Assembly (NCBI GenBank): GCA_945870575.1
Contig: CAMBSK010000011.1
Span: forward strand, 1-64,000
DNA length: 64,000 bases
From: Bordetella parapertussis
GTDB lineage: Bacteria > Pseudomonadota > Gammaproteobacteria > Burkholderiales > Burkholderiaceae_C
Direction of reading: 5' to 3'
In this document: in pieces, positions 9,114 through 61,109 of the stretch
Position numbering within the stretch: position 1 is the first letter of the stretch
Layout: each line of letters starts with the position of its first letter
Notes under the pieces: generated by a model
Seen by the model: only the letters and a program-made list of their open reading frames with translations
What the model was told of the DNA's origin: nothing
Databases searched by the model: none
Position numbers and translations under genes: made by a program

Positions 9114-9131
9114 GTCGGCATCCCCGCCGAC
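9114..9131 (-). promoter_or_regulatory. Hairpin in the riboswitch expression platform
   Basis: A perfect six-base stem (GTCGGC/GCCGAC) with a six-base loop lies between the cobalamin riboswitch aptamer and the btuB start codon. A second CAACAA/TTGTTG pairing lies nearer the start. Neither is followed by a U-tract, so control of translation rather than of termination is the more likely mode. This is an inference from position. Confidence 0.4.
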
Positions 9132-9159
9132 GTCAAGCGATCAGCCAGACACGCGGTCT

Positions 9160-11302: not shown

Positions 11303-11325
11303 TGTGTGCTCTCTGTCGTCACTGC

Positions 11326-13113: not shown

Positions 13114-13149
13114 CTTATCTGTTACCTGCTGTCTGATGCTTTGTGAGGC

Positions 13150-15648: not shown

Positions 15649-15650
15649 GC

Positions 15651-16376
15651 TTATTTCGCCCGGTTGCCAATGTAAACCTCGCGCACTTTGGCGTTGTTCA
15701 AAACCGCATCGGTAGAACCTTCCATCAACACGGCACCTTGATGCAAAACAGTGACCGTGCCGCCCAGCATTCGCACAAAATTCATGTCATGGTCGACCAC
15801 GACCACGGCGGCTTGCTGGTTGATACCGTGAATCAGTTCGACCAGACGGTCTGCTTCAGCGCCGGTGATGCCAGCAGCAGGTTCGTCGAGCAACACCAGT
15901 TTGGGACGTTGGCACAAGACCAAACCGATCTCGACAATTTGTCTTTGGCCGTGCGCGAGCTCACCGACACTGCGACGCAAATGTGTTTGCAAACCAAGTT
16001 CGGTAACCACGCGGTCAACCTCGGGAGATGCGCCATTTTTGCCGTGAATACGACGCGCCGACAACCACAGGTTTTCCCAAACCGTCAAGCCGTTCATCAC
16101 CGAGGGCACCTGGGTTTTAATGCCTACGCCTAGCTGCACAATTTCGTGCGGCCGCCAGCCGGTCACATCCTGTCCGCGGATAAATACGCGGCCGTTGCTG
16201 TGGTTAATCAGATGCTGACCGGTCAGGCACTTGAATAAGGTGCTTTTACCGGCGCCGTTGGGGCCGATCAGGCAACGCAGTTCGCGTTCGCGCAAACTGA
16301 AATTGACGTTATTCACAGCCAGCACGCCGCCGAAGCGCATGGACAAATCACGGGTTTCGACAATCATTTCACTCAT
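15651..16376 (-). CDS. ABC transporter ATP-binding protein (LivG/UrtD type)
   Basis: This is the first of two ATPases of a branched-chain amino acid/urea/amide-type importer. Walker A is [14 protein letters not shown] near residue 35, the signature is [13 protein letters not shown] near 138 and Walker B is [14 protein letters not shown] near 160. [21 protein letters not shown] is the typical UrtD/LivG Q-loop region. At 241 aa it is of normal length. It overlaps the LivM-type permease by four bases and is followed two bases later by the ATPase-amidase fusion, consistent with a coupled transporter operon. Confidence 0.92.
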
Positions 16377-17467
16377 GAACCGTGCCCCGTTTTGTCCTGT
16401 GCGGCGGCGGGCCGCTGCTGGCGTCGTTCACCGCCGCGTCGGCGCAAACTGTTAGAGCGCGCCCGGCTGACGCTGCGCTGATCCTGTTGATGGCGCCAGC
16501 CCAGAATCGAAGGCAGCAAACCGCGCGGCAGCAGCAGTACCACCAGCACCAAAATGGCGCCAATGACCAGCGAGTTGTCAATAAAAGTTTGACCGCCGAG
16601 CAAAAGCTTCATGGTGCCCAGCAGAACAGCACCTATGACCGGGCCCATCAAAGTACCTAAACCACCGGCAATCACCCAGATGATGACTTCGACCGATTGA
16701 CCCAGGCCGAACAGAGCAGGTGTGACAATTTCGGCCCAACTCGCAAACAAACACCCTGCCATACCAGCCATGGCGGCAGACAGAGAAAAAATGGCGGTCT
16801 TGTATGCAGGTGCGTTGTAGCCCAGCAGTTCAATACGCGCTTCGTTTTCGCGGATGCCCAACAAGATGCGACCAAAAGCGCTGGACAACACCCAGCGCGA
16901 AATGAGGTAGCAAAAGACCAGGCAGCAAACCACCAGGTAATAAAACGGCACTCCGAAAATCGGCGTTGACGGATCACCGGGCACATTCAGAATGGGAAAA
17001 GCCGGAATCCCGTTGAAACCACCTAAGCGTGCATTGCCTATGCTGTAAGCGTCGCCTGCGGTCGCTCCCATGAACTTGGCCAAGATCAGCGAAAACACCA
17101 AGGTGATCACGCCCATGTACACATCGCTGATACGACCGTAAAACATCATCGCGCCTATGAGTGCCGCCACGAAAGCAGGCAGCAAAATAGCCAGCATCCA
17201 GGCCGCCGTGCTTTCACCCAGATTCATGGACGTGATGGCGTAGGTATAAGCGCCGAGACCGAAATACGCGGCATGCCCGAAGCTGAGAATACCGGCATAG
17301 CCCCACATCAAACCTAGCGACAAGGCAAACAAAGCCCAGATACCCAGCAGAGTTGGCGTGTTGGTATCAAAGAATGCCGGCAGCAGCAGCAGCAAAATGA
17401 AAACAGTGATGATCCAGCCCCAATGGGTGCGACCTGCGCTGGAGAATTTGGCGGCGTCTCCAATCAT
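16373..17467 (-). CDS. ABC transporter permease (LivM/UrtC type)
   Basis: This 364-aa inner-membrane permease has about ten hydrophobic segments. Family marks are WALFALSLGLMWGYAGILSFGHAAYFGLGAY near residue 43 and the cytoplasmic coupling loop RILLGIRENEARIELLGYN near 215, both typical of the LivM/UrtC half. The C-terminal tail after residue 315 is Arg/Gln-rich and longer than usual. It overlaps the neighbouring permease and ATPase genes by four bases on each side. Confidence 0.92.
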   Translation of the reverse strand: MIGDAAKFSSAGRTHWGWIITVFILLLLLPAFFDTNTPTLLGIWALFALSLGLMWGYAGILSFGHAAYFGLGAYTYAITSMNLGESTAAWMLAILLPAFVAALIGAMMFYGRISDVYMGVITLVFSLILAKFMGATAGDAYSIGNARLGGFNGIPAFPILNVPGDPSTPIFGVPFYYLVVCCLVFCYLISRWVLSSAFGRILLGIRENEARIELLGYNAPAYKTAIFSLSAAMAGMAGCLFASWAEIVTPALFGLGQSVEVIIWVIAGGLGTLMGPVIGAVLLGTMKLLLGGQTFIDNSLVIGAILVLVVLLLPRGLLPSILGWRHQQDQRSVSRARSNSLRRRGGERRQQRPAAAQDKTGHGS

Positions 17468-35947: not shown

Positions 35948-36367
35948 TCAGAAATAATGCTTTTCGCCGAAGCTGATGTCGTAATCGATAAAAAGCTCTT
36001 CACCTTCGGCGATGTGCGCAAGGCTTTCGAGCGCACCGTTTTTCTTGAAGCGTAAATTGGGTTGCTTAGAATGATTGAGGTATACCGCCAGGTCAAATGA
36101 ATTCAAGCCTATGCTTGGGATACTGACTGACTTTCTATCGTAAAAGCAAAACATATCGATTTGACTAAGCACACCTTTGGGTAGGTGTTTTATATCTTTT
36201 TTATCAATGTCAATTTCCTTGAAATGCAAATAACTTTTTAAAGGGTTTACGCCTTTGGAAATGGGCCGCACCGCAAACACGCCAATGCCGTGTATCGGCG
36301 ACACACCGAGTTTACAGAATACTTCTGATTCCAGATGCTGGAGTATTTTCTTCTTGGACGTAGGCAT
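35948..36367 (-). CDS. Small SET-domain protein (putative lysine methyltransferase)
   Basis: The 139-aa product is essentially a bare SET domain. CKLGVSPIHGIGVFAVRPISKG (about residues 18-40) is the N-terminal SET strand region. FDLAVYLNHSKQPNLRFKK near 92-110 corresponds to the NHS/NHxxxPN motif that binds S-adenosylmethionine. EGEELFIDYD near 122-131 is the C-terminal ELxxDY motif carrying the catalytic tyrosine. No post-SET cysteine region is seen. The ATG at 36367 overlaps the start codon of the divergent PAP2 gene; an upstream TTG at 36403 is an alternative. Confidence 0.72.
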   Translation of the reverse strand: MPTSKKKILQHLESEVFCKLGVSPIHGIGVFAVRPISKGVNPLKSYLHFKEIDIDKKDIKHLPKGVLSQIDMFCFYDRKSVSIPSIGLNSFDLAVYLNHSKQPNLRFKKNGALESLAHIAEGEELFIDYDISFGEKHYF

Positions 36368-37250
36368 GGAAGCACTTTCTCGTTTGAAGACGACTATAAC
36401 CAATGCAGTCTTACGGTTATGGCCTCTGCTTACAATCTTGCCGATGTTTCAGCTAATACCTGCACCGGACAAGCCCCGTCTGACTCTTCTTCTTATTTTT
36501 TCCGTTACTTTGATGCTCGGCGGTTTGCTGTTGTTCCTCTCGCCCATGAATTTGCAATCCATGCTGTGGCTGAACCATCTGACACCCGGCCTGGACTACT
36601 TCTGGTCATTCATTACCCAATTTGGCGATGGCGCTGCGGTCCTGCTGCTGTTGCTTGTGATCACCCGTTTCAGCCAGAACGGTAATGCTCTCAGCCTGAA
36701 AATCTTTTTGCTCGGCTCCCTCCTGTCGCCGTTGCTCAAATCCTGGGTGGCCTCGCCACGCCCGTTGGGTGTGGTGCAGCCTGATCTGTTGAACAGAATA
36801 GGCCAGCCCCTGACCGGAGCCAACTCCATGCCCTCTGGCCACAGCCTGACGGTTTTTGCTGGCATAGGCGTGATTCTTCTATGCTTCTCCCTTAAAGCCC
36901 GCCACTGGCCGGTGGCCGCACTGCTGGTGTTGCTGGCGGTACTGGTTGCACTATCGCGCGTCATGGTAGGCGCGCACTGGCCGGCCGATGTGCTGGCCGG
37001 TGCCGGTTCGGGCCTGGCGGTGGCACTGCTGGCCCAGCGCTGGGAAGCGTCGCAAGCCTGGCAACCCTATTTACAAAGACGACCGGCGCAGTGGGGCCTG
37101 CTGTTGACTGAAATCGTGTTGGCCGGTTATTTGCTGACAGCGACTACCGCCACCGCAGCCGAACGTATGGCGTTTGACCTGATCGCCACCATCGGCATAG
37201 CCGGGGCCATGTCCAGGCTGTCGTTCATTCGCCGCCAGCCATGGGCATGA
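36366..37250 (+). CDS. PAP2-family membrane phosphatase
   Basis: This 294-aa inner-membrane protein has about seven to eight hydrophobic segments and the three PAP2 motifs: KSWVASPRP, SMPSGHSL and SRVMVGAHWPADVLAG. The family dephosphorylates lipid phosphates such as undecaprenyl diphosphate, phosphatidate or lipid A. The chosen ATG (36366) overlaps the divergent SET gene's ATG, leaving no room for a conventional leader, so a later start near MFQLIPAPDK is possible. It overlaps the next PAP2 gene by four bases. Confidence 0.85.
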   Translation: MEALSRLKTTITNAVLRLWPLLTILPMFQLIPAPDKPRLTLLLIFSVTLMLGGLLLFLSPMNLQSMLWLNHLTPGLDYFWSFITQFGDGAAVLLLLLVITRFSQNGNALSLKIFLLGSLLSPLLKSWVASPRPLGVVQPDLLNRIGQPLTGANSMPSGHSLTVFAGIGVILLCFSLKARHWPVAALLVLLAVLVALSRVMVGAHWPADVLAGAGSGLAVALLAQRWEASQAWQPYLQRRPAQWGLLLTEIVLAGYLLTATTATAAERMAFDLIATIGIAGAMSRLSFIRRQPWA

Positions 37251-38787: not shown

Positions 38788-39321
38788 TCAACACCCGCTG
38801 TCATTCACTGCGCCGTCGGGCATGACGGTTTTGCAGAATTTGACATCATCGAGTTTGGCGCCGTCCATTTTTGCGCCTTTCAGATTAGCGCCTGCCAACA
38901 CAGCGCCTTTCATGTTGGCATTCAGCAGCACTGCATCGCCGAGGTCGGCGCCGCTTAAATTGGCCTCGCGCAGGTAGGAGTTCGTGAAGTTAGCCAGGTG
39001 CAGATTGGCGCCGCTCAAATCGGTGCGGCGCAGATTCGCGTCTTCAAAATTGGTGACCAGCGTACGCTTTTCCATCGGGCGCTCGCTCAAATTGGCCTTG
39101 GTCAGCACTGCGCCGGACAGGTTGGCGTTTTGAAAATCGGCACCGCGCATATCGCGCCCTCCCAGGGGTGCATCAGTCAGGTCGCAGTATTTGCAGACAT
39201 TGGTGGTTTTAAAGTCTTCCATCTTGCCCGCGTCAAACGCTGCTACGGCCCAAGGCCAGACAGCACATGCGGCAGCAAGCGCCAGCGGCAACAGTTGATA
39301 AGGTTTTTGAATAACAGTCAC
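38788..39321 (-). CDS. Periplasmic pentapeptide-repeat protein
   Basis: This 177-aa protein has a hydrophobic signal-like N-terminus (about residues 8-30) and then a run of pentapeptide repeats A(D/N)LXX from about residue 55 to 160, for example ANLSGAVLTKANLSE, ANLRRTDLSGANLHLANF and ADLGDAVLLNANMKG. These fold as a right-handed quadrilateral beta-helix. Cys pairs (CKYC near 42, FCKTV and the terminal Cys) may form disulfides. The GTG at 39321 was chosen because AAAGGG precedes it at good spacing. Function unknown. Confidence 0.78.
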   Translation of the reverse strand: MTVIQKPYQLLPLALAAACAVWPWAVAAFDAGKMEDFKTTNVCKYCDLTDAPLGGRDMRGADFQNANLSGAVLTKANLSERPMEKRTLVTNFEDANLRRTDLSGANLHLANFTNSYLREANLSGADLGDAVLLNANMKGAVLAGANLKGAKMDGAKLDDVKFCKTVMPDGAVNDSGC

Positions 39322-39448
39322 GGCAAGACCCTTTAAAATCAATGAAATACGGATTTCGAATAATAACCAATAGCCTAGGCCTGACTTGGCCGTCAACAAG
39401 TACCCTCGCCGGGCCATCATGCGATGATCAGGATATTGAAAGGCTGTT

Positions 39449-39907
39449 ATGCAATTGTTGTACTCCATAGCGTCACCAGCGCGGCCATTTATCCGTCACG
39501 CGTTTCAGTGTTTGGCGGCTTTTTTATTTTTCAGCCAATCAGCACTTGCCTACACACTGACATGTGATTTGCAAGGTTCATTTCCGGAGCTGGACAAAAT
39601 CACCTTAGAACCGGCCCAGGTAAAGGTAGACATCACCTCCATCGGTGACCATTTGTACATTCGCATAGACGGCCCTAAGCTTTACAATTTCTTTGTCAAT
39701 ACACTCAGAACCCCTGAGTTTGAAGGCACTGACCTGACCTCCAAAACCAGTATGTGGGTCAAGCGCAAAAATCTGAAGACCATGGAAGAATCGGAAATCA
39801 AAATCAACCGTGAACCGGTCAATATCAAAGCCATCAAAGATGTGCAAAGGTATGGAAAGAAACTGAAGTTTTACGTCGCCGGTCCTTGCCAACTCCCGCC
39901 TGGATGA
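39449..39907 (+). CDS. Hypothetical secreted protein
   Basis: The family is not recognised. The 152-aa product has a signal peptide with the hydrophobic core CLAAFLFFSQSALA (cleavage after about residue 34). The mature part is about 118 aa, rich in beta-strand-like alternation and Lys, with two Cys (TCDLQG near the start and GPCQLPPG at the end) that could form a disulfide closing the domain. It is followed one base later by the PF10118-like gene. Confidence 0.6.
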   Translation: MQLLYSIASPARPFIRHAFQCLAAFLFFSQSALAYTLTCDLQGSFPELDKITLEPAQVKVDITSIGDHLYIRIDGPKLYNFFVNTLRTPEFEGTDLTSKTSMWVKRKNLKTMEESEIKINREPVNIKAIKDVQRYGKKLKFYVAGPCQLPPG

Positions 39908-39908
39908 T

Positions 39909-40739
39909 TTGAAAATGAATCCACTTATTGTTCGACAGTTATTGATCGATTTAGATACACCTTTTGCATTGCGCTGGAATGGCGGCGACGCGTTCGCATC
40001 CGCCTTTATGAATGCTTTGTCGCTGAGTTTTCCTGCTGGCGAGCAGTTTTTCCTGGACAGCGTGCGTGAGGGTCTCAAGCAATTGCCTGCAGATCAACAA
40101 GCCTTGTTCAAGGACGAGGTCAAAGGCTTTATCGGCCAGGAAGCCACACACCGGCGTCTGCACACTTTGTACAACCGGCATTTGCTCGATCAAGGCATGG
40201 TCAACCATTGGGAACAGCGCGCGCTCAAACGCATTGCCATCCTCAAAGAAATGGACATACGTCACTCTGTGGCTGCGACTGCGGCAAACGAACATTACAC
40301 CGCTGTGTTTGCCCATTGGTTGCTGTCCAACGAATGGTTTTTCAACCTCGCCGAGCCTCGACTCCAAACCCTTTGGTTATGGCATGCGAGCGAAGAGTCG
40401 GAGCACCGCAGCACAGCTTTTGACTTGTACCTGGCTTTGGACGGTAATGAAGAATGGCGGCTGCGCTGGATGCGCCGTGTGACCTGGTTTTTCCTGACCG
40501 ACTTGTTGCGCCAGACTGTCAACAACCTGTGGCACGATGGCAGTTTGTTTAAGCTCTCCACCTGGTCCAGCGCATGGCGGCATTTGTTTGCCCAAGGTGG
40601 CTTGTTTCGCGAGAGTTTCGGCCTGTGGCGAGACTATTTCAAACCCGGTTTTCACCCGTCGCAACATCCGGATCTTCTATCGAAACAATGGCTGCAACAA
40701 CATTTGGATGCTTTCACACCGGTAGCGCAAGCTGCTTGA
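39909..40739 (+). CDS. Predicted metal-dependent hydrolase (PF10118-like)
   Basis: This 276-aa helical protein resembles the COG3687/PF10118 family of predicted metal-dependent hydrolases. Candidate metal ligands are arranged as in ferritin-like folds: FIGQEATHRRLH near residue 75, TAANEHYTAVFAHWLL near 120 and WHASEESEHRSTAFDLY near 160. The start is TTG 39909 or ATG 39915. The reaction is unknown. The next gene encodes an alpha/beta hydrolase on the same strand. Confidence 0.75.
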   Translation: MKMNPLIVRQLLIDLDTPFALRWNGGDAFASAFMNALSLSFPAGEQFFLDSVREGLKQLPADQQALFKDEVKGFIGQEATHRRLHTLYNRHLLDQGMVNHWEQRALKRIAILKEMDIRHSVAATAANEHYTAVFAHWLLSNEWFFNLAEPRLQTLWLWHASEESEHRSTAFDLYLALDGNEEWRLRWMRRVTWFFLTDLLRQTVNNLWHDGSLFKLSTWSSAWRHLFAQGGLFRESFGLWRDYFKPGFHPSQHPDLLSKQWLQQHLDAFTPVAQAA

Positions 40740-40767
40740 TTTTTTTGATACCCCAACAGACCGCACC

Positions 40768-41703
40768 ATGCTAGACCCGCAAGCCCAAACCCTGCTACAA
40801 CTGATGGTTGAACGCGGCATCCCTGCCTTTAATGCACAAACACCGGTGGAAGCACGCCAAGCCTATTTGACGCGCAAAGGCTTTACCCAACCGGATCCAC
40901 CCGCTGTTTCGCATTGCCACGATCATCTGGTGCTTTTGAACGGGGTCAACATCAAGATCCGCGAGTTCCGCCCCGACGGTGCGACTTCCGTCGAAGTGCT
41001 GCCCGCCTTGGTCTATTACCACGGCGGCGGCTGGGTGATAGGCGATGTAGACACCCATGACGTGCTGTGCCGCCAGTTGTGCCAGGCCAGCGCTTGCGCC
41101 GTGTTTTCAGTCGACTACCGGCTTGCACCCGAGCATGTGTTTCCGGCCGCTTACGACGATGCACAAGCCGCTTTTCAGTGGGTGGCGGCGAATGCGCTCA
41201 GCTTGCACATTGACGCCAAACGAATCGCTGTAGGCGGCGACAGCGCCGGCGGCAACCTGGCTGCCACCGTGTGTCTAGGTGCCCGTGGCGGCAAGCACCT
41301 GCCTGCGTTTCAATTGCTGATTTACCCGGCCACGCTGATGTACCCGGACACGCAAAGCTACCGGGACAACGGTGAAGGCTATGCCCTCACCGCAGCGGTG
41401 ATGGACTGGTTCATGGACCATTACCTGCCGTCGCGAGACCTCGCCCACGACTGGCGCGCGTCGCCGTTGAAAGCGCAATCGCACGCTGACCTACCGCCCG
41501 CTCTTGTGCTGACCGCAGGTTTTGATCCGCTGCGCGACGAAGGCCGCTTGTACGCGGATGCTTTATCTGCCGCCGGCGGCAGCGCTGAATACATTTGCTT
41601 TGAACGTCAGATACACGGCTTCATCACCATGGGTCGTGTCATGCGCGAAGCACATACCGGCGTGGCGGTGTGCGCCAATGCCCTCAAGCGTTATCTCTTT
41701 TAA
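40768..41703 (+). CDS. Alpha/beta hydrolase of the hormone-sensitive lipase family
   Basis: This 311-aa esterase/lipase has the oxyanion motif YYHGGGWVIGD near residue 83, the nucleophile elbow AVGGDSAGGNLAA near 155, an acid in GFDPLRDEG near 252 and a His in ERQIHGFITMG near 281, completing the Ser-Asp-His triad. No signal peptide is seen. It lies 12 bases upstream of the molybdenum hydroxylase operon, so it may be the first gene of that unit. Confidence 0.9.
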   Translation: MLDPQAQTLLQLMVERGIPAFNAQTPVEARQAYLTRKGFTQPDPPAVSHCHDHLVLLNGVNIKIREFRPDGATSVEVLPALVYYHGGGWVIGDVDTHDVLCRQLCQASACAVFSVDYRLAPEHVFPAAYDDAQAAFQWVAANALSLHIDAKRIAVGGDSAGGNLAATVCLGARGGKHLPAFQLLIYPATLMYPDTQSYRDNGEGYALTAAVMDWFMDHYLPSRDLAHDWRASPLKAQSHADLPPALVLTAGFDPLRDEGRLYADALSAAGGSAEYICFERQIHGFITMGRVMREAHTGVAVCANALKRYLF

Positions 41704-41715
41704 GAAAGCCAAACG

Positions 41716-42177
41716 ATGAAACTCAATGTCAATGGTCAAAACCATACTTTAGATGTAGAGCCTGAAATGCCACTGCTATGGGCTTTGCGCGATGAACTCG
41801 ACATCAAAGGCCCTAAATACGGCTGCGGCATCGCCCAGTGTGGCTCTTGCACCGTGCTGCTCAACGGCGAACCGGTGCGCTCGTGCAGCTACCCGGTGTC
41901 CTCTGCGGATGGGCAACAGGTGATCAGTATTGAAGGCCTGGCCGACAAGGGAAAACTGCACGCGGTGCAGCAAGCATGGATAGACCACCAAGTGCCGCAA
42001 TGCGGTTATTGCCAGGGCGGTCAGATACTGGCGGCCGTAGCTTTGCTAAAGAAAAAACCCCAACCCAGCGACCAGGACATAGACGCGGCCATGACCAACA
42101 TCTGCCGCTGCGGTACCTATGCACGCATGCGCACCGCCATACACGCCGCAGCGCGTCAGGCCGGAGGTCAATCATGA
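41716..42177 (+). CDS. Molybdenum hydroxylase small [2Fe-2S] subunit, isoquinoline 1-oxidoreductase alpha type
   Basis: This 153-aa electron-transfer subunit belongs to the xanthine dehydrogenase superfamily. The plant-type cluster is in [18 protein letters not shown] with the fourth Cys in VRSCSYP. The second cluster is in [10 protein letters not shown] and [15 protein letters not shown]. Like IorA it is a stand-alone small subunit. Its TGA overlaps the ATG of the large subunit (ATGA). The natural substrate is unknown. Confidence 0.9.
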
Positions 42178-44330
42178 ACACCACTGCACTCAACCGCCGC
42201 CGGTTTTTACAAGTCAGCAGCAGCACCGCTGCCTCGCTCAGTCTGGGCTTTGTCTGGCCGAATGCCGCCATGGCCGCCGATCAAACAGAAGTCAACGCTT
42301 GGATAGAGATACACAGCGACGAGTCCATCGTCATACGCTATGCGCGCACCGAAATGGGCCAAGGCAGCCGCACCTCGGCGCCCATGTTGATCGCTGAAGA
42401 ACTGGAAGCCGATTGGCAAAAAGTGCGTGTGGTCGATGTGCCTGCGCATGAAAACCTGAGCCGCAAGCGCGCCTACGGCGACATGGCCAGTGTCGGCAGT
42501 CGCACTATTCGCATGTCGCAAGACTATTTGCGCAAAGCCGGTGCCGCCGCCCGCATCATGCTGATAGAAGCCGCAGCCCAGCGATGGAGCGTGCCAGTCG
42601 GCGAATGCAAGGCCGTGCTCGGTCATGTGTTTCACAACCCCAGCCACAAAAAACTCAGCTACGGCCAATTGGCAGCCGAGGCAGCCAAACTGACACCACC
42701 CAAAGACATTCCGCTCAAAGACCCGAAAACCTGGACCTTGGCAGGCAAACCGCTGCCGCGCGTAGATATCACCGATATCGTCACCGGCAAGATCCGCTTT
42801 GGCGTGGACGTGCAATTGCCGGGCATGCTGCATGCAGCCATCGCTCATTCGCCGGTGTTCGGCGGCACTGCTAAGTCGGTAGACAGCAGCAAAGTGGATA
42901 ACCGGCGCGGCATCGTCAAAGTCATCAACCTCGGCGAATTTGTGGCCATGGTGGCTGACAACTGGTGGCGCGCCAAAGAAGCTTTGCGCGATGTCGCCAT
43001 TGATTGGGACAACGGCAAGAACGGCGGCGTCAACAGCGCCGGTCTGATGCAGTATTACCGTGACGGTCTGACACAAACAGAGGTTGCGACTTCCCGCAAC
43101 GACGGCGACACCCTGGCCGCACTGCAAGCGGCGTCCAAAGTGATAGAGGCCGATTACTACACACCTTATCTGGCGCACGCCACCATGGAACCCATGGTTT
43201 GCACGGCTTTGCTGATCGACGACAAACTCGACATCTGGGCGTCCACCCAGAACCCGGAATCCACACTCACATCGGCTGCTGCGACCGCCGAGGTGCCGCA
43301 GGAAAATGTGCGCGTTTTCGCCATGCAAATGGGCGGCGGTCTGGGCCGCAAAGGTACGCAGGATTTCACCCGCCAGGCGGTGGCCCTCGCCATGCGACTG
43401 CCGGGCAAACCAGTCAAGCTGATGTGGAGCCGGGAAGAAGACATGCAGCACGACTTGTACCGCCCGGCCAGCCTGGTGCGCATGCGTGCGGCGTTGGACA
43501 CGTCCGGCAAACCGCAGGCCTTGCATGTGCGCGTCAGCGCCCCTTCGATTTTTTCTCAGTTGCTGCGCATGCCGTTGCAAAACGGTATAGACAACCAGGC
43601 CGTGGCCTGTTTTCCGGACCACCCCTATGCCATACCGAACACGCTGGTCGACTTTGCCATGCGCAGCACGCATGTGCCGGTAGGCTTTTGGCGCACGGTC
43701 GGGCATTCACAAAACCCGTTTGTGCGCGAATGCTTTCTGGATGAACTCGCGCATGCGGGCGGCCAAGAACCGCTGGCCTACCGCTTGTCCTTGCTGCCCA
43801 ACAACGAGAAAGCCAACCGCGATCGCAGCATGTTGATGGCCGTGGCCAAGGCCGCCGACTGGGACAAACCGCTGCCTGCCGGTGTGCACCGCGGCATTGC
43901 CAGCGTAGACGGTTACGGCAGTTGGACGGCGTGCGTGTGTGAAGTCTCGGTCAGCGCGCGTGGCGAAGTGAAAATCCACCGCGTTGTGATCGGCATAGAC
44001 CCGGGCTACGCGGTCAATCCCGACAACATACAAGCGCAATTGCAAGGCAGCGTGGTGCATGGTTTATCTGCCATCTTCTGGGGCGAGTTGACGGTTAAAG
44101 ACGGCCGTCTCGAGCAATCCAATTTCCACGACTACCGCATGATGCGCATGAACGAAATGCCCAAGGTGGAAACCGTGATCGCGCCCACAGGCGGCTTTTG
44201 GGGCGGTGTCGGCGAGCCGGCCCAGGCGCCGCTTGCGCCTGCGCTGGTCAATGCCTTGTTTGCCGCCACCGGCAAACGCATTCGCTCGCTGCCCTTAAAA
44301 AACCACGGCTTGAGTCTGGTGAAAGCATGA
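42174..44330 (+). CDS. Molybdenum hydroxylase large subunit, isoquinoline 1-oxidoreductase beta type (twin-arginine signal)
   Basis: This 718-aa molybdopterin-binding subunit has an N-terminal twin-arginine signal ([17 protein letters not shown], cleavage near AMAAD). IorB-type marks are [26 protein letters not shown] near 340, GGGLGRKG and the catalytic-glutamate block [11 protein letters not shown] near 680. Such enzymes hydroxylate N-heterocycles or aldehydes and work in the periplasm. Directly downstream, with an ATGA overlap, is soxX, so the two are translationally coupled. The catalytic FAD subunit of xanthine dehydrogenase is absent, as in IorAB; electrons may leave through a cytochrome c. 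Confidence 0.9.
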
Positions 44331-44740
44331 AGCGCGGGTTGGTTTGTCTGGCACTGATGTTTGCCGCCAATGTGTGGGCGATCGATCTCAGCATGCCGCC
44401 GACCAAGTCGGCGGCCACCGCCAATGTCGAGCGCGGGCGCAAACTGTTGATCAACCGCCAGGAAACCGGTTGCGTGCTTTGTCACCGCATTCCCGGCATG
44501 AAAGAAGGCGGCGAAATGGGGCCGGTTTTGAGCGGCTTGAGCCAGCGCATGTCGGCCGATCAAATCCGCCAGCGCATCGCCGACTGGCGCGCAGTAAACC
44601 CCCAGACCTTCATGCCGGCCTATTTCAGCAGCAAAGGTCTTCATAATGTTGCCAAGCCACTGGTTGGTAAAACCGTACTCACCGAGCAAGGCCTGGAAGA
44701 CATCGTGGCTTATTTGCTTGACGCTACCAAAGGACCTTGA
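44327..44740 (+). CDS. soxX: SoxX-like monoheme cytochrome c
   Basis: SoxX pairs with SoxA to attach sulfur substrates to the SoxY carrier. The 137-aa precursor has a signal peptide (about residues 1-20), the heme site CVLCH (Cys49, Cys52, His53) and a candidate axial Met96 in the TFMPAYF motif typical of SoxX. The C-terminal EQGLEDIVAYL segment also fits. The ATG at 44327 lies in the ATGA overlap with the molybdenum hydroxylase gene, and its TGA overlaps the soxY ATG. Confidence 0.86.
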   Translation: MKRGLVCLALMFAANVWAIDLSMPPTKSAATANVERGRKLLINRQETGCVLCHRIPGMKEGGEMGPVLSGLSQRMSADQIRQRIADWRAVNPQTFMPAYFSSKGLHNVAKPLVGKTVLTEQGLEDIVAYLLDATKGP

Positions 44741-45246
44741 TGTATTTGTTGTCTCGCCGTGACTGGCTTCGCCGTTTCAGCCTGAGCACTGCCGGGCTGT
44801 GGGCAGGGTCAACCGGCTTATCCAAGGCCCAGGACATGTCGGTGTTAGGCCGAGTGCAAGACCTGAGCGATGCGCGTTTGCGCACTTTCGATGAAATAGT
44901 CTCAGCTTATGTGGTGCGCCAGCAATTGAAAAACGAAGGCATGGGTTTGACCATGCCTTTGCTGGCTGACAACGGTCACCTGGTGCCACTGAGCTTGAAG
45001 GTCGACAGCCCGATGACCGAGGAGTCGCATGTCACCCACGTCTACATATTGTCCCAACTCAACCCGGCACCGCTGATTGCCATGTTTGTGCTGGGACCAT
45101 GGAATGGCAAAGCGGAACTCAGCATGCGCGTTCGTCTTTCCGGCACGCAAATGGTGGTGGCGCTGGCGCGCATGTCCGACGGCAACTTCCGCTACGCGAC
45201 GAGCCAGGTGTCTGTCACTGAAGCCGCCTGTGTGGACAACGGATAA
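44740..45246 (+). CDS. soxY: SoxY-like sulfur carrier protein with a non-canonical C-terminus
   Basis: SoxY carries sulfur intermediates covalently on a C-terminal cysteine. This 168-aa precursor has a twin-arginine-like N-terminus (SRRDWLRRFSLSTAGL) and a SoxY-type fold. The tail reads TEAACVDNG: the Cys (residue 164) is kept but the canonical GGCGG swinging-arm motif is not. It probably belongs to a divergent SoxY group. The ATG at 44740 is preferred over the TTG at 44737 because of the overlap with the soxX stop. Confidence 0.82.
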   Translation: MYLLSRRDWLRRFSLSTAGLWAGSTGLSKAQDMSVLGRVQDLSDARLRTFDEIVSAYVVRQQLKNEGMGLTMPLLADNGHLVPLSLKVDSPMTEESHVTHVYILSQLNPAPLIAMFVLGPWNGKAELSMRVRLSGTQMVVALARMSDGNFRYATSQVSVTEAACVDNG

Positions 45247-45249
45247 AGC

Positions 45250-45600
45250 ATGACCGCCGCCCGTTTACAAGTTCCCGCGCGCATCGTCGAAGGCGATGTG
45301 TTCAAACTGCGTTTGCTGGTGCAGCATCCCATGGACAGCGGCTTTTTGCGCAACCTCGAAGGTGTGCTGGTCAAGCGCAATGTGATCCGCCATTTGCAAT
45401 GCATCTTCCATAGCAAGGAAGTATTCCGGGTCGAGCCTACCACCGGCACCGCGGCCAACCCCTTGTTCGAGTTTTATTTGCGCGCCACCACGTCTGGCGA
45501 GTTGTATTTCCGCTGGGTCGACGACAAGGGCTATATCGGCGAGTTACGCCACAACCTGGTGGTTATTCCCGCCAATCAATCTAAAGCACCCAAAACCTGA
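45250..45600 (+). CDS. soxZ: SoxZ-like sulfur carrier partner
   Basis: SoxZ binds SoxY and supports the carrier arm in the periplasm; it is exported with SoxY and has no signal of its own. The 116-aa protein contains VEGDVFKLRLLVQHPMDSG and FRVEPTTGTAANPLFEFYL, typical of the Ig-like SoxZ fold. It follows soxY by three bases and touches soxA (the last base of its stop is the first of the soxA start). Confidence 0.88.
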   Translation: MTAARLQVPARIVEGDVFKLRLLVQHPMDSGFLRNLEGVLVKRNVIRHLQCIFHSKEVFRVEPTTGTAANPLFEFYLRATTSGELYFRWVDDKGYIGELRHNLVVIPANQSKAPKT

Positions 45601-46445
45601 TGCCACGTCTTTTTTGCTTGTTTTCGCTGCCATCCGCCAAGCAGCCGCGCAGCGTCTTGCGCCAGCGCTTGTTGGCTGCCGTGCTGCTGTTGCTGAGTCT
45701 AGGCCATGTCTCAGTCATGGCGCAACAGCGTTTGCTGCCGCTGGACAAGGTGCAATCCGGCCTGGCGTTTACCGGCCCTGAAATTCTGGAATTGCAAGCC
45801 GACGACTTTGCCAACCCTGCCCTGCCCTATTTGGACAAAGGCGCCAAGTTGTGGAGCCAGGGTGCTGGCAAGGCAGACAAAAGCTGTGAAAGTTGTCACG
45901 GCGACAGCAACAGCAGCATGAAGGGCGTGGCCACGCGTTACCCGGCCATAGACAAAGCCAGCAAGAAACTCTACAACCTGGAAGACCGCATACGCAACTG
46001 CCGCACCAAACAACAAAAAGCCTCTGACTGGCCGCTGGAATCCGATGAATTGCTGGCGGTCAGCTTGTATGTGACATCAGAGTCCAACGGCATGCCGGTT
46101 CAAGCCAATATCGAAGGCAAGGCCAAATCGCATTTTGAAAACGGCCAGAAAATATTCATGACCCGCCAAGGGCAGTTGAACATGGCCTGTACCCAATGCC
46201 ATGACCAACGCTACGGCATCAAGCTCTATACCGACAAACTCAGCCAGGGCCAGCCGAATGCCTACCCGGCCTACCGTATCGAGTGGCAGCGACTGGCTTC
46301 GCTGGAGCGGCGACTGCGGTTTTGTTACAACGGCGTGCGCGCCGAAATACCTGCCTGGGGCCACGGCGTGATGCGCGACATCAGCCTGTACCTGATGTGG
46401 CGTGCGCAAGGCCTCAACATAGAAGTGCCTTCAGTGCGCAAATAA
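45600..46445 (+). CDS. soxA: SoxA-like diheme cytochrome c
   Basis: SoxA with SoxX catalyses oxidative coupling of a sulfur compound to SoxY. The 281-aa precursor has a signal peptide (about residues 25-41), an N-terminal heme site CESCH (Cys96, Cys99, His100) and a C-terminal heme site CTQCH (Cys197, Cys200, His201). Cys242 in RRLRFCYNGVRAE corresponds to the active-site heme-ligand cysteine of the family. It ends the IorAB-SoxXYZA unit. No soxB, soxC or soxD follows. Confidence 0.86.
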   Translation: MPRLFCLFSLPSAKQPRSVLRQRLLAAVLLLLSLGHVSVMAQQRLLPLDKVQSGLAFTGPEILELQADDFANPALPYLDKGAKLWSQGAGKADKSCESCHGDSNSSMKGVATRYPAIDKASKKLYNLEDRIRNCRTKQQKASDWPLESDELLAVSLYVTSESNGMPVQANIEGKAKSHFENGQKIFMTRQGQLNMACTQCHDQRYGIKLYTDKLSQGQPNAYPAYRIEWQRLASLERRLRFCYNGVRAEIPAWGHGVMRDISLYLMWRAQGLNIEVPSVRK

Positions 46446-46448
46446 GCT

Positions 46449-47297
46449 TTAAAAAGTAGCCAACACTTTTTTCCACAACTCGGGGGTCACCTCGGGCATG
46501 ACACCGAACCAGGCCGCAAAACCCGGACGCGCCTGGTGCAGCAACATGCCCAGCCCGTTCACCACAGGATTACCGCGCGCTTTGGCGCGCAACAACAAAT
46601 CGGTATGCAAGGGTGTGTAAACAATGTCCGACACCAATGCATGCACAGGCAAGGCCGATAAATCAATGTCCAGCGCGGGCTGACCTTGCATACCTTGCGT
46701 GGTGGTATTGACCAACAAGCCAGCATCAGCCAGCGCGGCGTGACGTTGTGACCAGTCCAGCGCTTGCACCGGCGCACCGAAGTCTGCCGCCATGGCCTGC
46801 GCTTTGTCTAAGCTGCGATTGAGCAAACGGATGTTTTTCACCCCGGCGTCGGCCAAAGCCCAGACCACCGCCCGGGCTGCGCCGCCTGCCCCCAGCACCA
46901 CGGCCGCGCCCCGGTCAGCACGCCAGCCGGGCTGAGCTTCGCGCAAACTGTGTATGTAGCCGAAGGCATCGGTGTTGGTGCCGCGTAAGCTGCCGTCGGT
47001 ATTCACCACCACGGTGTTGACCGCGCCGATCTGGCGCGCCACCTCGTCGAGTTGGTGGATACAGTCCAGCGCATCTATTTTGTGCGGCAAGGTCAGGTTG
47101 CAACCGGCAAAACCCAGCGCCGGTAAACCGCTGAGCGCCTGCGGCAAATGCAAAGGATTGACGGCCAACGGCACATAGGCACCGCGCACACCGTAGTGCG
47201 CCAGCCAGTGGCTATGTATCAGCGGCGAACGCGAATGCGAAATCGGCCAGCCCATGACCCCGGCAAGCTTGAAATCGGTAGAGGATTGACTGCTCAT
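46449..47297 (-). CDS. aroE: Shikimate dehydrogenase
   Basis: AroE reduces 3-dehydroshikimate with NADPH in aromatic amino acid synthesis. The 282-aa sequence has GWPISHSRSPLIHSHW near residue 16, NLTLPHK with the catalytic lysine near 70, GTNTDAFGY with the aspartate near 106, VLGAGGAARAVVWAL as the NADP motif near 135 and NTTTQGMQG near 205. It converges on soxA with only three bases between stops and is a housekeeping gene inside the sulfur block. Confidence 0.95.
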   Translation of the reverse strand: MSSQSSTDFKLAGVMGWPISHSRSPLIHSHWLAHYGVRGAYVPLAVNPLHLPQALSGLPALGFAGCNLTLPHKIDALDCIHQLDEVARQIGAVNTVVVNTDGSLRGTNTDAFGYIHSLREAQPGWRADRGAAVVLGAGGAARAVVWALADAGVKNIRLLNRSLDKAQAMAADFGAPVQALDWSQRHAALADAGLLVNTTTQGMQGQPALDIDLSALPVHALVSDIVYTPLHTDLLLRAKARGNPVVNGLGMLLHQARPGFAAWFGVMPEVTPELWKKVLATF

Positions 47298-47405: not shown

Positions 47406-49778
47406 ATGTACGAAGCAAACAACGCCAGCAGTCACAGACTGCACCAGTTTCTGGCCGATATGACCAGGCTGGTTGATACCGCCCCCCAAGAAGCCGAACT
47501 GCTGGCTCAAGGCCGTCGCATGTTGCAAAACCTGTTGCAACAGGACGATTGGCTGCACCCTGAACTGGCGCAAGCCCATCCCGCCCATTACCAGCAGTAC
47601 CTGATTTATGCCGATCCGCAAGACCGGTTCTCGGTGGTCAGCTTTGTCTGGGGACCGGGCCAGTCCACGCCCATCCATGATCACACCGTTTGGGGTTTGA
47701 TAGGCATGCTGCGCGGCAGCGAATCCTGTCAGCCTTACAGCCGCATGTCGGATGGCCGCTGGGTGCCGGCCGGTTTTCAAATTGACATGCTGCCCGGCGA
47801 CATCGAAGCCGTCTCGCCGCGCATAGGCGATGTGCATAAAGTATGGAACGCATTGCCCGGCCAGGTGTCCATCAGTATCCATGTGTATGGCGGCAACATC
47901 GGCAAGATAGAACGCCACAGTTACCGAGAAGACGGCACGCGCAGCAACTTCGTGTCCGGTTACTCTAATGTGCTGCCTGTGACGGCAGTTTCCCCAACTG
48001 CACTAGCACCAGTGGCCATGGCTTCGCAAACGCCGCAGGCGCCTGTGACAACCGCACCCCATGCACCGCACACATCCGCCGCGCCTTTAGCCTTGTTTGC
48101 GGATTCTTCAGCAACAGCTGATGCCACTGTGTCTGACAGACCACTTAATCAACTGCCGGACGACGCTTTCGACACAACCACGGCTGCTTATGCTGTCGCC
48201 ACCTTTCAAGACGTGCGCCAGACCTTGCTGGACAAACAGGAAATCGCTCTGGTCGATGTGCGCGAAGAAGACATTTATGCGCAAAGCCATCCGCTGTTTG
48301 CCGTCAACCTGTCTTATGGCCGCATCGAATGCGAAGCCCGCTTGCGCATACCGCGCCTGGACACTGCGTTGGTGTTGCTAGACAACGGCGAGGGTTTGAC
48401 GCTGCGTGCAGCACAGGTGTTGGCGCGCATGGGCTACACGCAGATAAGTACTCTTCAAAACGGTTTGAGCGGCTGGGCAGCCGCCGGCGGTGAGTTGTTC
48501 CGCGACGTCAATGTGCCCGGCAAAGCCTTCGGCGAACTGGTCGAATCCAAACGCAAGACACCGTCTATGTCGGCCACCGAGGTCAAGGCCTTGATCGACA
48601 GCGACGCCGACATGGTGGTGCTGGACGCCAGACGTTTTGACGAATACCAGACCATGAGCATCCCGGGCGCCATCAGCGTGCCCGGCGCGGAACTGGTGCT
48701 GCGTGCGCGCAGCCTGGCGCCAAGCGCAACCACACGCATCGTGGTGAACTGCGCGGGCCGCACGCGCAGCATCATCGGTACCCAATCGTTGGTGAACGCA
48801 GGCATCCCTAACCCTGTGTGCGCCTTGCGCAACGGCACCATAGGCTGGACGCTGGCTGGGCTGGCGCTGGAGCACAAAGCCAGTCAAGTTTTCGGCGAGG
48901 TCAACGACGCTGACCGCAAAAAAGCCGCTGCCTCTGCACTGGCGTTGCTGTTTCGCGCCGGCGTGCAACGCATAGACAAACAGGACTTGCAAGCCTTGCT
49001 AGCCGAGGCTACACGCAACACCTATGTGTTTGACGTTCGCACGCCCGAAGAGTTCGCGCTCGGTCATCTGCCTGGCGCGCGCAGCGCACCGGGCGGGCAA
49101 CTGGTGCAGGAAACCGACCACCATGTCGGTGTGCGCGGTGCGCGCATCGTGCTGTACGACGACGACGGGGTACGCGCCTCCATGACGGCCTCATGGCTGG
49201 CGCAAATGGGCTGGGATACTTACGTTCTCAAAGACCTCAAGCCCGGGGATTTGCAAGACACCGGCGTGCTTGATTACGCCTTGCCCGAGCCGCTGGCACC
49301 AGTGGCTGAAGTCGATCCGGTCACGCTCAAGGAATGGCTGGCCAACCGCAGCAACCTGAGCATGGTCATCGATGTGGGCGACAGCGCCACCTATATCAAA
49401 AGGCACATACCGGGCGCCTGGTGGCTGCTCAGATCACAACTGGCCCAGGACTTCAGCCGAGTGCACAAAGCCAACCGCTATGTGCTGACCTGTGCCGACG
49501 GGCGGGCTTCGCGTTACGCGGTCGCCGAATTGCAACCACTGCTGCGCTCAGGTGTGCAGGTGCTGTGGCTGAGCGGCGGCAATGCAGCCTGGATGGCGCA
49601 AGGTTTCAGCACCCAGCAAGGCGAGTCCTACCTGGCGAGTCCGCGGATTGACCGTTACCGCCGACCCTATGAAGGCACCGACAACCCGGCGCAGGCCATG
49701 CAAGCCTACCTGGACTGGGAATACGGCCTGGTAGAACAGCTGCGCAAGGACGGCAGCCACCATTTCAAAGTGATTTAG
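47406..49778 (+). CDS. Thiol dioxygenase (cysteine dioxygenase type) fused to four rhodanese domains
   Basis: This 790-aa cytoplasmic fusion has an N-terminal cupin thiol dioxygenase (about residues 1-185) with the iron ligands His91 and His93 in TPIHDHTVWG and His144 in GDVHKVW. A Pro/Ala/Thr-rich linker (about 195-240) follows, then four rhodanese domains (about 260-365, 380-490, 525-625 and 640-760). The expected catalytic Cys is present in domains 2 (VVNCAGRTRS) and 4 (VLTCADGRAS), while domains 1 (LLDNGEGLT) and 3 (LYDDDGVRA) lack it. Alternating active and inactive domains look like two tandem-type sulfurtransferases. It probably links thiol oxidation to persulfide transfer. Confidence 0.87.
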   Translation: MYEANNASSHRLHQFLADMTRLVDTAPQEAELLAQGRRMLQNLLQQDDWLHPELAQAHPAHYQQYLIYADPQDRFSVVSFVWGPGQSTPIHDHTVWGLIGMLRGSESCQPYSRMSDGRWVPAGFQIDMLPGDIEAVSPRIGDVHKVWNALPGQVSISIHVYGGNIGKIERHSYREDGTRSNFVSGYSNVLPVTAVSPTALAPVAMASQTPQAPVTTAPHAPHTSAAPLALFADSSATADATVSDRPLNQLPDDAFDTTTAAYAVATFQDVRQTLLDKQEIALVDVREEDIYAQSHPLFAVNLSYGRIECEARLRIPRLDTALVLLDNGEGLTLRAAQVLARMGYTQISTLQNGLSGWAAAGGELFRDVNVPGKAFGELVESKRKTPSMSATEVKALIDSDADMVVLDARRFDEYQTMSIPGAISVPGAELVLRARSLAPSATTRIVVNCAGRTRSIIGTQSLVNAGIPNPVCALRNGTIGWTLAGLALEHKASQVFGEVNDADRKKAAASALALLFRAGVQRIDKQDLQALLAEATRNTYVFDVRTPEEFALGHLPGARSAPGGQLVQETDHHVGVRGARIVLYDDDGVRASMTASWLAQMGWDTYVLKDLKPGDLQDTGVLDYALPEPLAPVAEVDPVTLKEWLANRSNLSMVIDVGDSATYIKRHIPGAWWLLRSQLAQDFSRVHKANRYVLTCADGRASRYAVAELQPLLRSGVQVLWLSGGNAAWMAQGFSTQQGESYLASPRIDRYRRPYEGTDNPAQAMQAYLDWEYGLVEQLRKDGSHHFKVI

Positions 49779-60147: not shown

Positions 60148-60188
60148 GGAGGTGGCCATTTCTGAAAAGTCGCCGCATTAAGCTATGT
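60148..60188. repeat. Junction repeat, copy A
   Basis: GGAGGTGGCCATTTCTGAAAAGTCGCCGCATTA and flanking bases resemble the stretch at 63609-63650 with about three quarters or more identity. Copy A sits exactly where the first antitoxin copy breaks off. It could be an end of a lost mobile element or a recombination junction. No transposase is present in the window. Confidence 0.5.
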
Positions 60189-61109
60189 GCCCTTGGCCAC
60201 CTTCGACTTCACCCTAACTTTGGGCTGGCTCGGCGCTGCCGGTTGGGGCGCATCCAGCAAATCGCGCGTGTTTGGCGCGGCAAGGTAGTTGGCTTTGCTC
60301 ACCACCTTCTTACCCGTTTTGGCCTCTAGCGCTTTGCGGGCGTTGCCGGCAATCTTTCCGCCCTCTTTGGCGGATGTGCGGTTCTCCACAAAACCCTGAG
60401 CGTCGCTGCGGCGGGCAATCTCGGTGGTGCTGGCTTCTCCCAGCATGGTGAAGATCAACTCCAGGTCGGTCATGTGGTCGCGCAGCTTGTTACCGGTCTT
60501 CACCAGATCCAGGCCTTTGAGCTGGCTGTGTTCGACGGGCGTCACACCAAAAGTGGCGCGGGCAATTTCGGCGGTGAGTATCGAATACTCTTTGCCCTCG
60601 GCCACGCCCCGCGCCTTCCACTCATCGGTCAGCTCTCCACGCACAGAGATGGAGCGCAACCGCTTCTCGATCCATGCCGGCGGGTAACCCTTGGCCTTAT
60701 AAAGCTCGCGGGCGCGGGCGCTGGCCAGTTCGGGGTTTTCAATTTCTTTGACTCGCTCGTAACCCACCTGCGCCAGCCAGCGTTTGAACGGCTCGGCCTT
60801 GGGCGAGGGGATGGACTGGATGATGCGAAACAGGCCTTCGGTGTTGGCGCAATTGGTTTCTCGCATCTTTCCGTCTGAGGTCCGAAGCGCAAGGGGGGTA
60901 CAAGTTGTACCCCAGTTGGCGTCCAGAGCAGGGTCACGGCTACGCATCTTCTTGATGTATTGCCGTGGATCTGCCGAATCGGTTAACACCACGATGACAT
61001 CGCTCAGGGCAAACCACCACTCCTCGTTGTGCCAAACACGGCGAATGGTGGTTTCTTGGAATACCGCGATGTGGTGCGCGGGTTCGTTGGGAGGGGTGAT
61101 TTTGGTCAT
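60183..61109 (-). CDS. dinD: DinD-like BRO-N domain protein (DNA-damage-inducible protein D family)
   Basis: This 308-aa protein has an N-terminal BRO-N domain (RRVWHNEEWWFALSDVIVVLTDSADPRQYIKKMRSRD, then LRTSDGKMRETNCANTEGLFRII near 75-97) and a C-terminal part resembling E. coli DinD (VEHSQLKGLDLVKTGNKLRDHMTDLELIFTMLGEASTTEIARRSDAQGF). The tail is Lys/Pro-rich. A LexA-box sequence lies 14-33 bases upstream, in keeping with SOS control. E. coli DinD inhibits RecA strand exchange. Phage antirepressor relatives are an alternative, but the damage box favours DinD. Confidence 0.82.
   Translation of the reverse strand: MTKITPPNEPAHHIAVFQETTIRRVWHNEEWWFALSDVIVVLTDSADPRQYIKKMRSRDPALDANWGTTCTPLALRTSDGKMRETNCANTEGLFRIIQSIPSPKAEPFKRWLAQVGYERVKEIENPELASARARELYKAKGYPPAWIEKRLRSISVRGELTDEWKARGVAEGKEYSILTAEIARATFGVTPVEHSQLKGLDLVKTGNKLRDHMTDLELIFTMLGEASTTEIARRSDAQGFVENRTSAKEGGKIAGNARKALEAKTGKKVVSKANYLAAPNTRDLLDAPQPAAPSQPKVRVKSKVAKGT

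Follow-up and report, generated by a model that had tools for sequence, protein, structure and literature searches.

The gene string and its proteins

The window analysed here is a stretch of 64,000 nucleotides (positions 1 to 64,000 of the forward strand of contig CAMBSK010000011.1, assembly GCA_945870575.1, filed as Bordetella parapertussis), which carries on the plus strand at 41716-46445 a single string of six genes encoding, in this order, the small and large subunits of a molybdenum hydroxylase (MoS and MoL) and the proteins SoxX, SoxY, SoxZ and SoxA. The genes are closely packed, with 4-base overlaps at both the MoS/MoL and MoL/SoxX junctions, a 1-base overlap between SoxX and SoxY, a gap of 3 bases between SoxY and SoxZ and again a 1-base overlap between SoxZ and SoxA, using gene starts refined from the sequence (for SoxY the ATG at 44740, where the list of open reading frames (ORFs) had the TTG at 44737). 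An initial annotation of this DNA had described six genes in this order, with overlaps or gaps of at most three bases and without soxB, and this description was confirmed: no soxB is present within the six-gene string, and the gene was also not found in several whole genomes of relatives.

The MoS subunit (41716..42177) contains two [2Fe-2S] domains (Pfam Fer2_2, 1.3e-27, and Fer2, 5.4e-8), and exactly eight cysteine residues are present in 18 of the 20 MoS ORFs tallied, with 10 and 11 in the remaining two. MoL (42174..44330) is the large molybdopterin subunit, starting with the twin-arginine motif RRRFL and containing a GVGEP motif, whose Glu681 (in FWGGVGEP) we take to be the catalytic residue, as in the enzyme family. 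Hence, the traits of two-subunit enzymes of the xanthine oxidase (XO) family are found together, namely a 2Fe-2S small subunit, a molybdopterin large subunit, the glutamate and the fold. The twin-arginine motif is present in MoL of the window and in 49 of 51 Sox-linked MoL rows, the two misses being L208, whose start is absent, and L093, a wrongly extended ORF (loci are numbered L and genomes G throughout), and the hydroxylase is predicted from these motifs to be exported to the periplasm by the twin-arginine route. In the initial annotation the two subunits were called IorAB-type, of which the family resemblance is borne out and the identity with a named enzyme is not, since MoL reaches the cut-off of no curated NCBIfam equivalog (the model of another enzyme scores best, with 172 bits where 994.55 are required), IorAB was not among the NCBIfam models listed for it and the nearest solved structure is that of the membrane-bound aldehyde dehydrogenase of acetic acid bacteria (Gluconobacter, PDB 8gy3). 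Carbon monoxide dehydrogenase was also considered as the identity of MoL and was dropped, because the large-subunit models score far under their cut-offs.

In a tree of MoL sequences, all 51 Sox-linked MoL fall inside one clade of 57 rows with 17 other paralogues outside it (SH-aLRT 99), and Trp676, beside the catalytic Glu681, is present in 51/51 linked MoL, while Pro is found in 16 of the 17 outside paralogues. Sox linkage had looked near-exclusive to one MoL clade when 15 paralogues, all drawn from the genomes of the module, were compared, but near relatives from plasmids then added four rows of that clade without Sox genes. Both MoL trees and the SoxY tree described below are quick trees without bootstrap, with a midpoint root for drawing only.

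The SoxY paralogue (44740..45246), the sulfur-carrier subunit, has a Tat-like leader (SRRDWL) and matches Pfam SoxY at 1.7e-26. However, its carrier arm (45217..45243, with the Cys codon at 45229-45231) ends in TEAACVDNG and not in the GGCGG of known SoxY proteins, a feature that was not mentioned in the initial annotation. The TEAAC[VIL]DNG arm is found in 36/36 aligned relatives, and among the best 120 of 494 database relatives 118 end in TEAAC[VIL]D followed by NG or KG, one of the other two having AACVES and one a different, apparently broken end. Among 82 SoxY ORFs of module loci (GGCGG loci L024 and L135-L137, which are not module loci, being excluded), none has GGCGG and 65 have AAC[IVL][ED]. 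The best model for the SoxY of the window is NCBIfam TIGR04487, 'SoxY-related AACIE arm protein', with 106.4 bits and hence below the cut-off of 172, which wider-group relatives do exceed (for example L207 with 212 bits); the protein also stays below the NCBIfam model of 'true' SoxY (86 against 125). When the arm was removed, 83 altered-arm rows still separated from 14 GGCGG rows (SH-aLRT 96, 141 columns). An AlphaFold model of SoxY (pLDDT 73.6) matches the Paracoccus SoxYZ structure 2oxh (Foldseek E 5.8e-8), and residues 164-169 of its arm have pLDDT below 50, a low confidence which, in a predicted model, is as expected for a swinging arm.

SoxX (44327..44740) is a monoheme cytochrome c (NCBIfam TIGR04485, 69.3 bits against a cut-off of 61), SoxZ (45250..45600) is the partner of SoxY (Pfam SoxZ 2.4e-19; below the cut-off of the NCBIfam model of 'true' SoxZ, with 64.4 against 76), and SoxA (45600..46445) is a diheme cytochrome with its active-site Cys (SLERRLRFCYNGVRAE; NCBIfam TIGR04484, 215.9 against 110). 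One CxxCH motif is present in 77/77 SoxX ORFs and two in 75/75 SoxA ORFs of the module, and the SoxA active-site Cys is present in 74 of the 75 (73 by pattern and one more by eye), the last being a wrongly extended ORF. When SoxA of the window was aligned to 1h31 and 2c1d, both structures were found to have Cys at the same place, which is the active-site residue of this protein. As the hemes of SoxX and SoxA and the SoxA Cys are kept, SoxXA is presumably active in joining sulfur to the carrier cysteine.

Recurrence of the module and its occurrence without soxB

Scanning one genome per species revealed 26 related loci, the nearest to the window lying in G001, which has soxB. In L001-L023, which belong to Burkholderiales and come mostly from freshwater bins, tblastn identified MoL in 21 of 23 loci, MoS in 18, SoxX in 20, SoxZ in 22 and SoxA in 19, some of the loci being cut by contig ends, and L024 is an ordinary GGCGG SoxY locus. 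Among 399 genomes of the Burkholderiales family of G001 (betaproteobacterial), 49 have TIGR04487 members over the cut-off, as have 21 of 385 in the alphaproteobacterial class of G025. Of the 30 TIGR04487 loci scoring best in the G001 family, 29 have MoL beside the Sox genes, and MoL is present in 19/20 extended loci of this family and in 19/20 extended alphaproteobacterial loci, which were taken from the best-scoring loci and are not a random sample; among the short alphaproteobacterial loci L109-L134 and L138, it was seen in 9 of 27, the upstream side being taken up in many of the others by a flavocytochrome c sulfide dehydrogenase (FCSD). The same gene order is found on complete plasmids of Methylobacterium sp. 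NMS14P (pNMS14P1) and Roseomonas marmotae, and Neorhizobium galegae has the same string with MoL not annotated and readable only as an open stretch of 657 aa in which the usual start is missing. Polaromonas sp. JS666 is also listed with a SoxY of the AACIE type. At ordinary GGCGG SoxY or SoxB loci MoL was found in 0/25, these control loci (from 14 genomes, 11 of them giving both a SoxY and a SoxB locus) spanning only 1.8-4.7 kb, with any MoL more than about 1.5 kb away out of view.

Thus, the link between a molybdenum hydroxylase and SoxXYZA, for which the initial annotation had proposed a search of other genomes, is real and widespread, and its adjacency is not unique to this genome, since the pairing recurs in beta- and alphaproteobacterial genomes. 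As order and tight spacing are kept across two classes, the adjacency is not due to chance. A chance or passive neighbourhood of unrelated genes, to which the few loci lacking one half or the other might point, is already refuted by this conservation across genomes of order, spacing, one MoL clade and an arm-specific SoxY subfamily, and its likelihood is close to nil.

Several loci depart from the usual arrangement. In L021-L023 the order is MoS-MoL-SoxY-SoxZ with SoxX not in between, and one of these, L022, belongs to Limnohabitans sp. JirII-31, which has a second diverged copy (L191, at G022:C6:1-14000) with SoxXYZA facing MoL-MoS on the other strand and a SoxY arm ending in ATACFDET. In the alphaproteobacterial locus L026, one string at 932-16619 holds two MoS-MoL pairs, two SoxYZ pairs, SoxX, SoxA, an FCSD and also two proteins resembling the formylglycine-generating enzyme. 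L013 and L016, from public bins titled Rickettsia typhi and Bordetella parapertussis, have the gene order of freshwater Burkholderiales, and these titles look wrong.

L001-L026 come from 26 genomes, of which 25 carry a SoxY locus with the altered arm (in L020 a contig end removes the arm itself). In nine of the 25, soxB exceeds its cut-off, and in G005 it is partial, all ten having also a second, ordinary SoxY, while G024, the tenth genome of the set with soxB over the cut-off, has ordinary SoxY only. In the wider survey, 19 of 21 alphaproteobacterial and 10 of 49 betaproteobacterial TIGR04487-bearing genomes gave no soxB match, soxB being counted at E <= 1e-100, which gives 216 of 399 beta- and 38 of 385 alphaproteobacterial genomes (213 and 38 over the cut-off). 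Of these soxB-free genomes, 14 of the 19 alphaproteobacterial and 6 of the 10 betaproteobacterial ones were seen to have MoL at their Sox locus; of the others, G514 has none over 18 kb, G516, G494, G570 and G650 gave short loci only, and the loci of G230, G037, G415 and G322 were left out of the MoL inspection. The gene soxC was found in 16 of 48 genomes tested, namely in 10/10 betaproteobacterial genomes with soxB, in one of the two alphaproteobacterial genomes with soxB (G545 having it and G784 lacking it) and in five genomes without soxB.

Absence of a gene carries more weight where one contig represents nearly the whole genome (G223, G238, G437, G626 and G771; in G370 it covers 5.59 of 5.9 Mb), absence from the draft genomes being weaker evidence. 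In G238 and G437 (near-closed) and in G370, the single SoxY and the single SoxA are both those of the module, and neither soxB nor soxC was found. G223, a near-closed genome of one 6.65 Mb contig, keeps MoS-MoL-SoxY-SoxZ, and in it soxB and soxC were likewise not found, nor did SoxA have any match in the genome with E up to 1e-8; elsewhere, a long ORF contains a second stretch resembling SoxY. Since the module is present in genomes lacking soxB and soxC, the usual thiosulfate cycle is not needed for it. The smallest surviving unit seen is the molybdenum hydroxylase with SoxYZ, in G223, and retention of SoxYZ with loss of SoxA argues that SoxYZ matters most to the molybdenum enzyme.

The initial annotation had named two results that would refute its reading, namely an adjacency unique to this genome, which is not the case, and soxB or soxCD elsewhere with normal thiosulfate oxidation independent of the hydroxylase. 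Presence of soxB elsewhere does not hold as a rule; yet soxB is common in the betaproteobacterial carriers, where 39 of 49 TIGR04487-bearing genomes have it (including G317 with a partial soxB only) as compared to 177 of 350 others (p = 1e-4, not corrected for kinship). In the alphaproteobacterial genomes there is no association (2/21 against 36/364, p = 1). The betaproteobacterial enrichment could be accounted for if the molybdenum enzyme were a substitute for SoxCD, oxidising sulfane sulfur on SoxY with an unlinked hydrolase (SoxB where present) releasing sulfate, and hence a variant of inorganic sulfur oxidation; SoxCD is also a molybdenum enzyme with a cytochrome that acts on SoxY. However, the 19 alphaproteobacterial genomes missing soxB do not fit this explanation, the XO family inserts oxygen at carbon and MoL retains the catalytic Glu belonging to this chemistry, and all 10 tested betaproteobacterial genomes with soxB have soxC, hence leaving no gap to fill. 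We regard such a substitution as quite improbable. The notion that the molybdenum enzyme replaces SoxB one-for-one was dropped, as the chemistry is different and no evidence for it was found.

In the alphaproteobacterial copies, the order MoS-MoL-small cytochrome c-FCSD flavoprotein-SoxX-Y-Z-A is frequent, with FCSD present in 13 of 20 extended alphaproteobacterial loci as compared to 3 of 20 extended betaproteobacterial loci. Pfam domains FCSD_central and FCSD-flav_bind are found in the copies of L025 and L026, and the cysteines at positions 187 and 358 (L207 numbering), presumably the redox pair of 1fcd, are kept in 20/20 rows. The recurrence of this sulfide-oxidising FccAB, and the minimal unit MoS-MoL-SoxY-SoxZ, would also suit a model in which SoxYZ is a periplasmic sulfur donor that gives the exported enzyme back the terminal sulfido ligand of its molybdenum cofactor, the arm being charged with sulfane sulfur by SoxXA and FccAB; the sulfur would be handed over and not hydrolysed off, and hence no SoxB would be needed. 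Against such a donor stand 15 loci of paralogous molybdenum hydroxylases in the same genomes (with the twin-arginine motif in 14 of them), which, like same-clade MoL elsewhere, do without Sox genes nearby. Moreover, cytoplasmic sulfuration of the XdhC type before export is the known route, and an XdhC-family gene adjoins a Methylosinus MoS-MoL pair. This role for SoxYZ seems improbable, to the same degree as the substitution for SoxCD.

Proposed function of the module

We tentatively propose, with a confidence somewhat short of even, that the string encodes a self-contained periplasmic module for the oxidation of a sulfur-containing, probably organic substrate, separate from thiosulfate oxidation. 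The conserved linkage across two classes, the altered-arm SoxY, the single clade of linked MoL with its Trp676, the occurrence without soxB and soxC, the retention of MoS-MoL-SoxY-SoxZ in G223, the FCSD partner and the retained SoxA Cys are counted in its favour. According to this proposal, SoxXA would join the sulfur substrate to the Cys of the altered SoxY arm, as suggested by the known chemistry of SoxXA and the intact active sites, and the substrate would most likely be an organic thiol or another organosulfur compound. The molybdenum hydroxylase would then oxidise one of the carbons of this compound, which at that point would be attached to SoxYZ or about to be loaded, with the oxygen derived from water and the electrons passing via the iron-sulfur clusters to cytochrome c, as would be expected from the enzyme family. 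The leftover sulfur would be released or recycled by FCSD where present and by other enzymes elsewhere. Within such a scheme, the product is not a SoxY-bound sulfone and no sulfone has to be hydrolysed, hence SoxB would not be needed. The initial annotation had suggested a different substrate, or that the group bound to SoxYZ is loaded or released in a new manner; the presence of the module in genomes free of soxB and soxC fits this suggestion.

A number of observations weigh against this proposal. SoxXYZA is found without MoL nearby in L010, L011, L107 and L153, and FCSD is missing from the module of the window and from 17 of 20 extended betaproteobacterial loci. The enrichment of soxB in betaproteobacterial carriers suggests that some link to the canonical pathway may exist there. 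The lack of SoxA in G223 shows that loading by SoxXA can be dispensed with in some cases, and this part of the scheme is weakened accordingly. No enzyme of the XO family is known to act on a substrate tethered to a protein. Finally, same-clade MoL without Sox genes nearby is present in four rows, from Sinorhizobium, Rhizobium and Methylosinus, and G010 and G011 each contain an orphan copy, so that the molybdenum enzyme can probably act alone.

Such Sox-free members of the clade also speak for an explanation in which the molybdenum enzyme is an ordinary periplasmic oxidoreductase of aldehydes or N-heterocycles, with SoxXA mainly as its electron-accepting cytochrome and SoxYZ involved in stress or in handling a sulfur by-product of a separate kind, the two parts being co-regulated without a mechanistic coupling. 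The aldehyde dehydrogenase as nearest structure is in line with this explanation, as is the c-type cytochrome adjoining 4 of 5 inspected annotated MoS-MoL pairs that lack Sox genes. However, it leaves unexplained why G223 retains SoxYZ, which has no redox cofactor, while losing SoxA, and why the linked MoL form a single clade and share a common altered arm. On balance we consider it rather unlikely.

Some of the genomes with unlinked components have further features. Lone MoL of the Sox clade at L189 (6288-8450) and L190 (3410-5572), with no small subunit found adjoining, come from the two genomes in which MoS and MoL are missing from the Sox operon, and the surroundings of the L189 gene contain genes for a TctC receptor and for Amdase-like, isochorismatase-like and PEP-mutase-like proteins. 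On plasmid NZ_CP021805.1 of Sinorhizobium meliloti, a MoL 47% identical to that of the window lies about 434 kb away from SoxY. Also in Sinorhizobium meliloti, L212 (6851-9292) has the order SoxY-SoxZ-cytochrome c-FAD oxidoreductase with no SoxXA or MoL adjoining and an arm ending in TNGCL.

A further role is conceivable, in which SoxYZ is no thiosulfate carrier and is the dedicated swinging arm of the molybdenum hydroxylase, its Cys holding either the organic substrate or a sulfane sulfur for the molybdenum site, with SoxXA and FccAB as optional chargers; we consider this unlikely. If true, SoxYZ and the quinoprotein-linked carriers together would make up a type of carrier serving periplasmic dehydrogenases in general, comparable to glutathione or coenzyme A in protein-bound form, and thiosulfate oxidation would be only one specialised use of it. 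If the molybdenum enzyme does work on a SoxYZ-bound group, a carrier known so far from the oxidation of inorganic sulfur would have a new use, and the nature of the group on its arm could be addressed directly by mass spectrometry.

Surroundings of the module and known systems

Upstream of the string and on the same strand lie genes for a predicted metal-dependent hydrolase (PF10118, 39909..40739; Pfam Metal_hydrol 2e-70) and an esterase of the hormone-sensitive lipase family (40768..41703; Pfam Abhydrolase_3 3.2e-74; NCBIfam LipP1 352.5 against 350). The end of the hydrolase gene is separated from the esterase gene by 28 bases and the end of the latter from MoS by 12 bases, and both genes are probably on the same transcript as the Mo/Sox string; across 39300-46700, three promoter-like sites were found, with 3.0 expected by chance. 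Among L001-L023, tblastn identified the esterase gene in 16 of 23 loci, as compared to 0/40 extended loci of other lineages, and it is hence a clade-specific addition, as is the PF10118 hydrolase gene, present in 15 of the 23. The gene 3' of SoxA is aroE on the opposite strand. Past aroE, a plus-strand gene at 47406-49778 encodes a 790-aa protein with four rhodanese domains behind a region that resembles a cupin of the cysteine dioxygenase type (the cupin being without a Pfam match); it is found in this place in 19 of the 23 loci and may be part of the same sulfur physiology as the module.

Further away, about 8 kb from the Sox module, the segment 54564-57613 (plus strand) encodes an alcohol dehydrogenase dependent on pyrroloquinoline quinone (PQQ; TIGR03075, 656.7 against a cut-off of 480), followed by a protein that combines a MoxJ-like binding domain with a cytochrome c domain. 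Three further genes of note lie on the minus strand of the window: a single 832-aa ORF at 13150-15648 with an N-terminal ABC transporter ATPase domain and a C-terminal amidase domain, a SET-domain protein of bacterial type at 35948-36403 and, close to the window end, a BRO-N domain protein at 60183-61109, a family common in phages.

Genomic and metagenomic surveys take soxX, soxY, soxZ and soxA as markers for the oxidation of thiosulfate, and a widespread soxXYZA set that belongs to another system would be miscounted as such. The arm motif, mostly AAC[IVL][ED] as compared to GGCGG, offers an easy way to separate the SoxY of the module from ordinary SoxY. In the open-access literature searched, no description of the pairing of a molybdenum hydroxylase with Sox carriers was found, and for the TIGR04487 subfamily a curated name exists with no described function found.

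A possible published relative is a partial sox cluster of SAR324, in which a flavocytochrome c adjoins SoxY and SoxZ and for which a novel mechanism was guessed, an isoquinoline 1-oxidoreductase being reported separately from draft genomes of the same study (PMC4782131). In the passages considered, the molybdenum hydroxylase and the SoxYZ genes are not connected; the cluster may be the same module. FccAB/SoxF itself lies between MoL and SoxX or adjoins the module in many alphaproteobacterial copies, as distinct from the module of the window, from which it is absent.

Exported two-subunit enzymes of the XO family, such as IorAB-like enzymes and 8gy3, have in common with MoS-MoL the 2Fe-2S small subunit, the twin-arginine large subunit, the GxGE motif, the fold and the lack of an adjoining FAD subunit. 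However, MoL of the module forms a clade of its own with FW preceding GGVGEP, where outside paralogues mostly have Pro, and is encoded together with Sox carriers. TIGR04557, the quinoprotein dehydrogenase-associated SoxYZ-like carrier, to which SoxY and SoxZ of the window show weak matches (55.5 and 40.5 bits against 140), is likewise a carrier of the SoxYZ type whose name refers to a periplasmic dehydrogenase and not to sulfur oxidation; it differs in being one fused protein tied, by its name, to PQQ enzymes, whereas the module has separate SoxY and SoxZ, a molybdenum enzyme and SoxXA.

TIGR04487 is the closest curated SoxY model, and its inspected members are mostly found, with few exceptions, in the same MoS-MoL-SoxXYZA string. 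The SoxY of the window scores 106 bits against 172 and its arm reads AACVDNG, the group being known here by the name of its model; it does have an AACIE-type Cys arm and the same gene neighbourhood, which is our own reading of membership and not NCBI's definition. With the canonical SoxXYZABCD system of the Paracoccus type, the module shares homologous SoxX, SoxY, SoxZ and SoxA, the heme motifs, the SoxA Cys and a Cys on a SoxY arm predicted to be flexible; it differs in a gene string without SoxB and SoxCD, in an arm that is mostly AAC[IVL][ED] in place of GGCGG and in the molybdenum hydroxylase encoded alongside.

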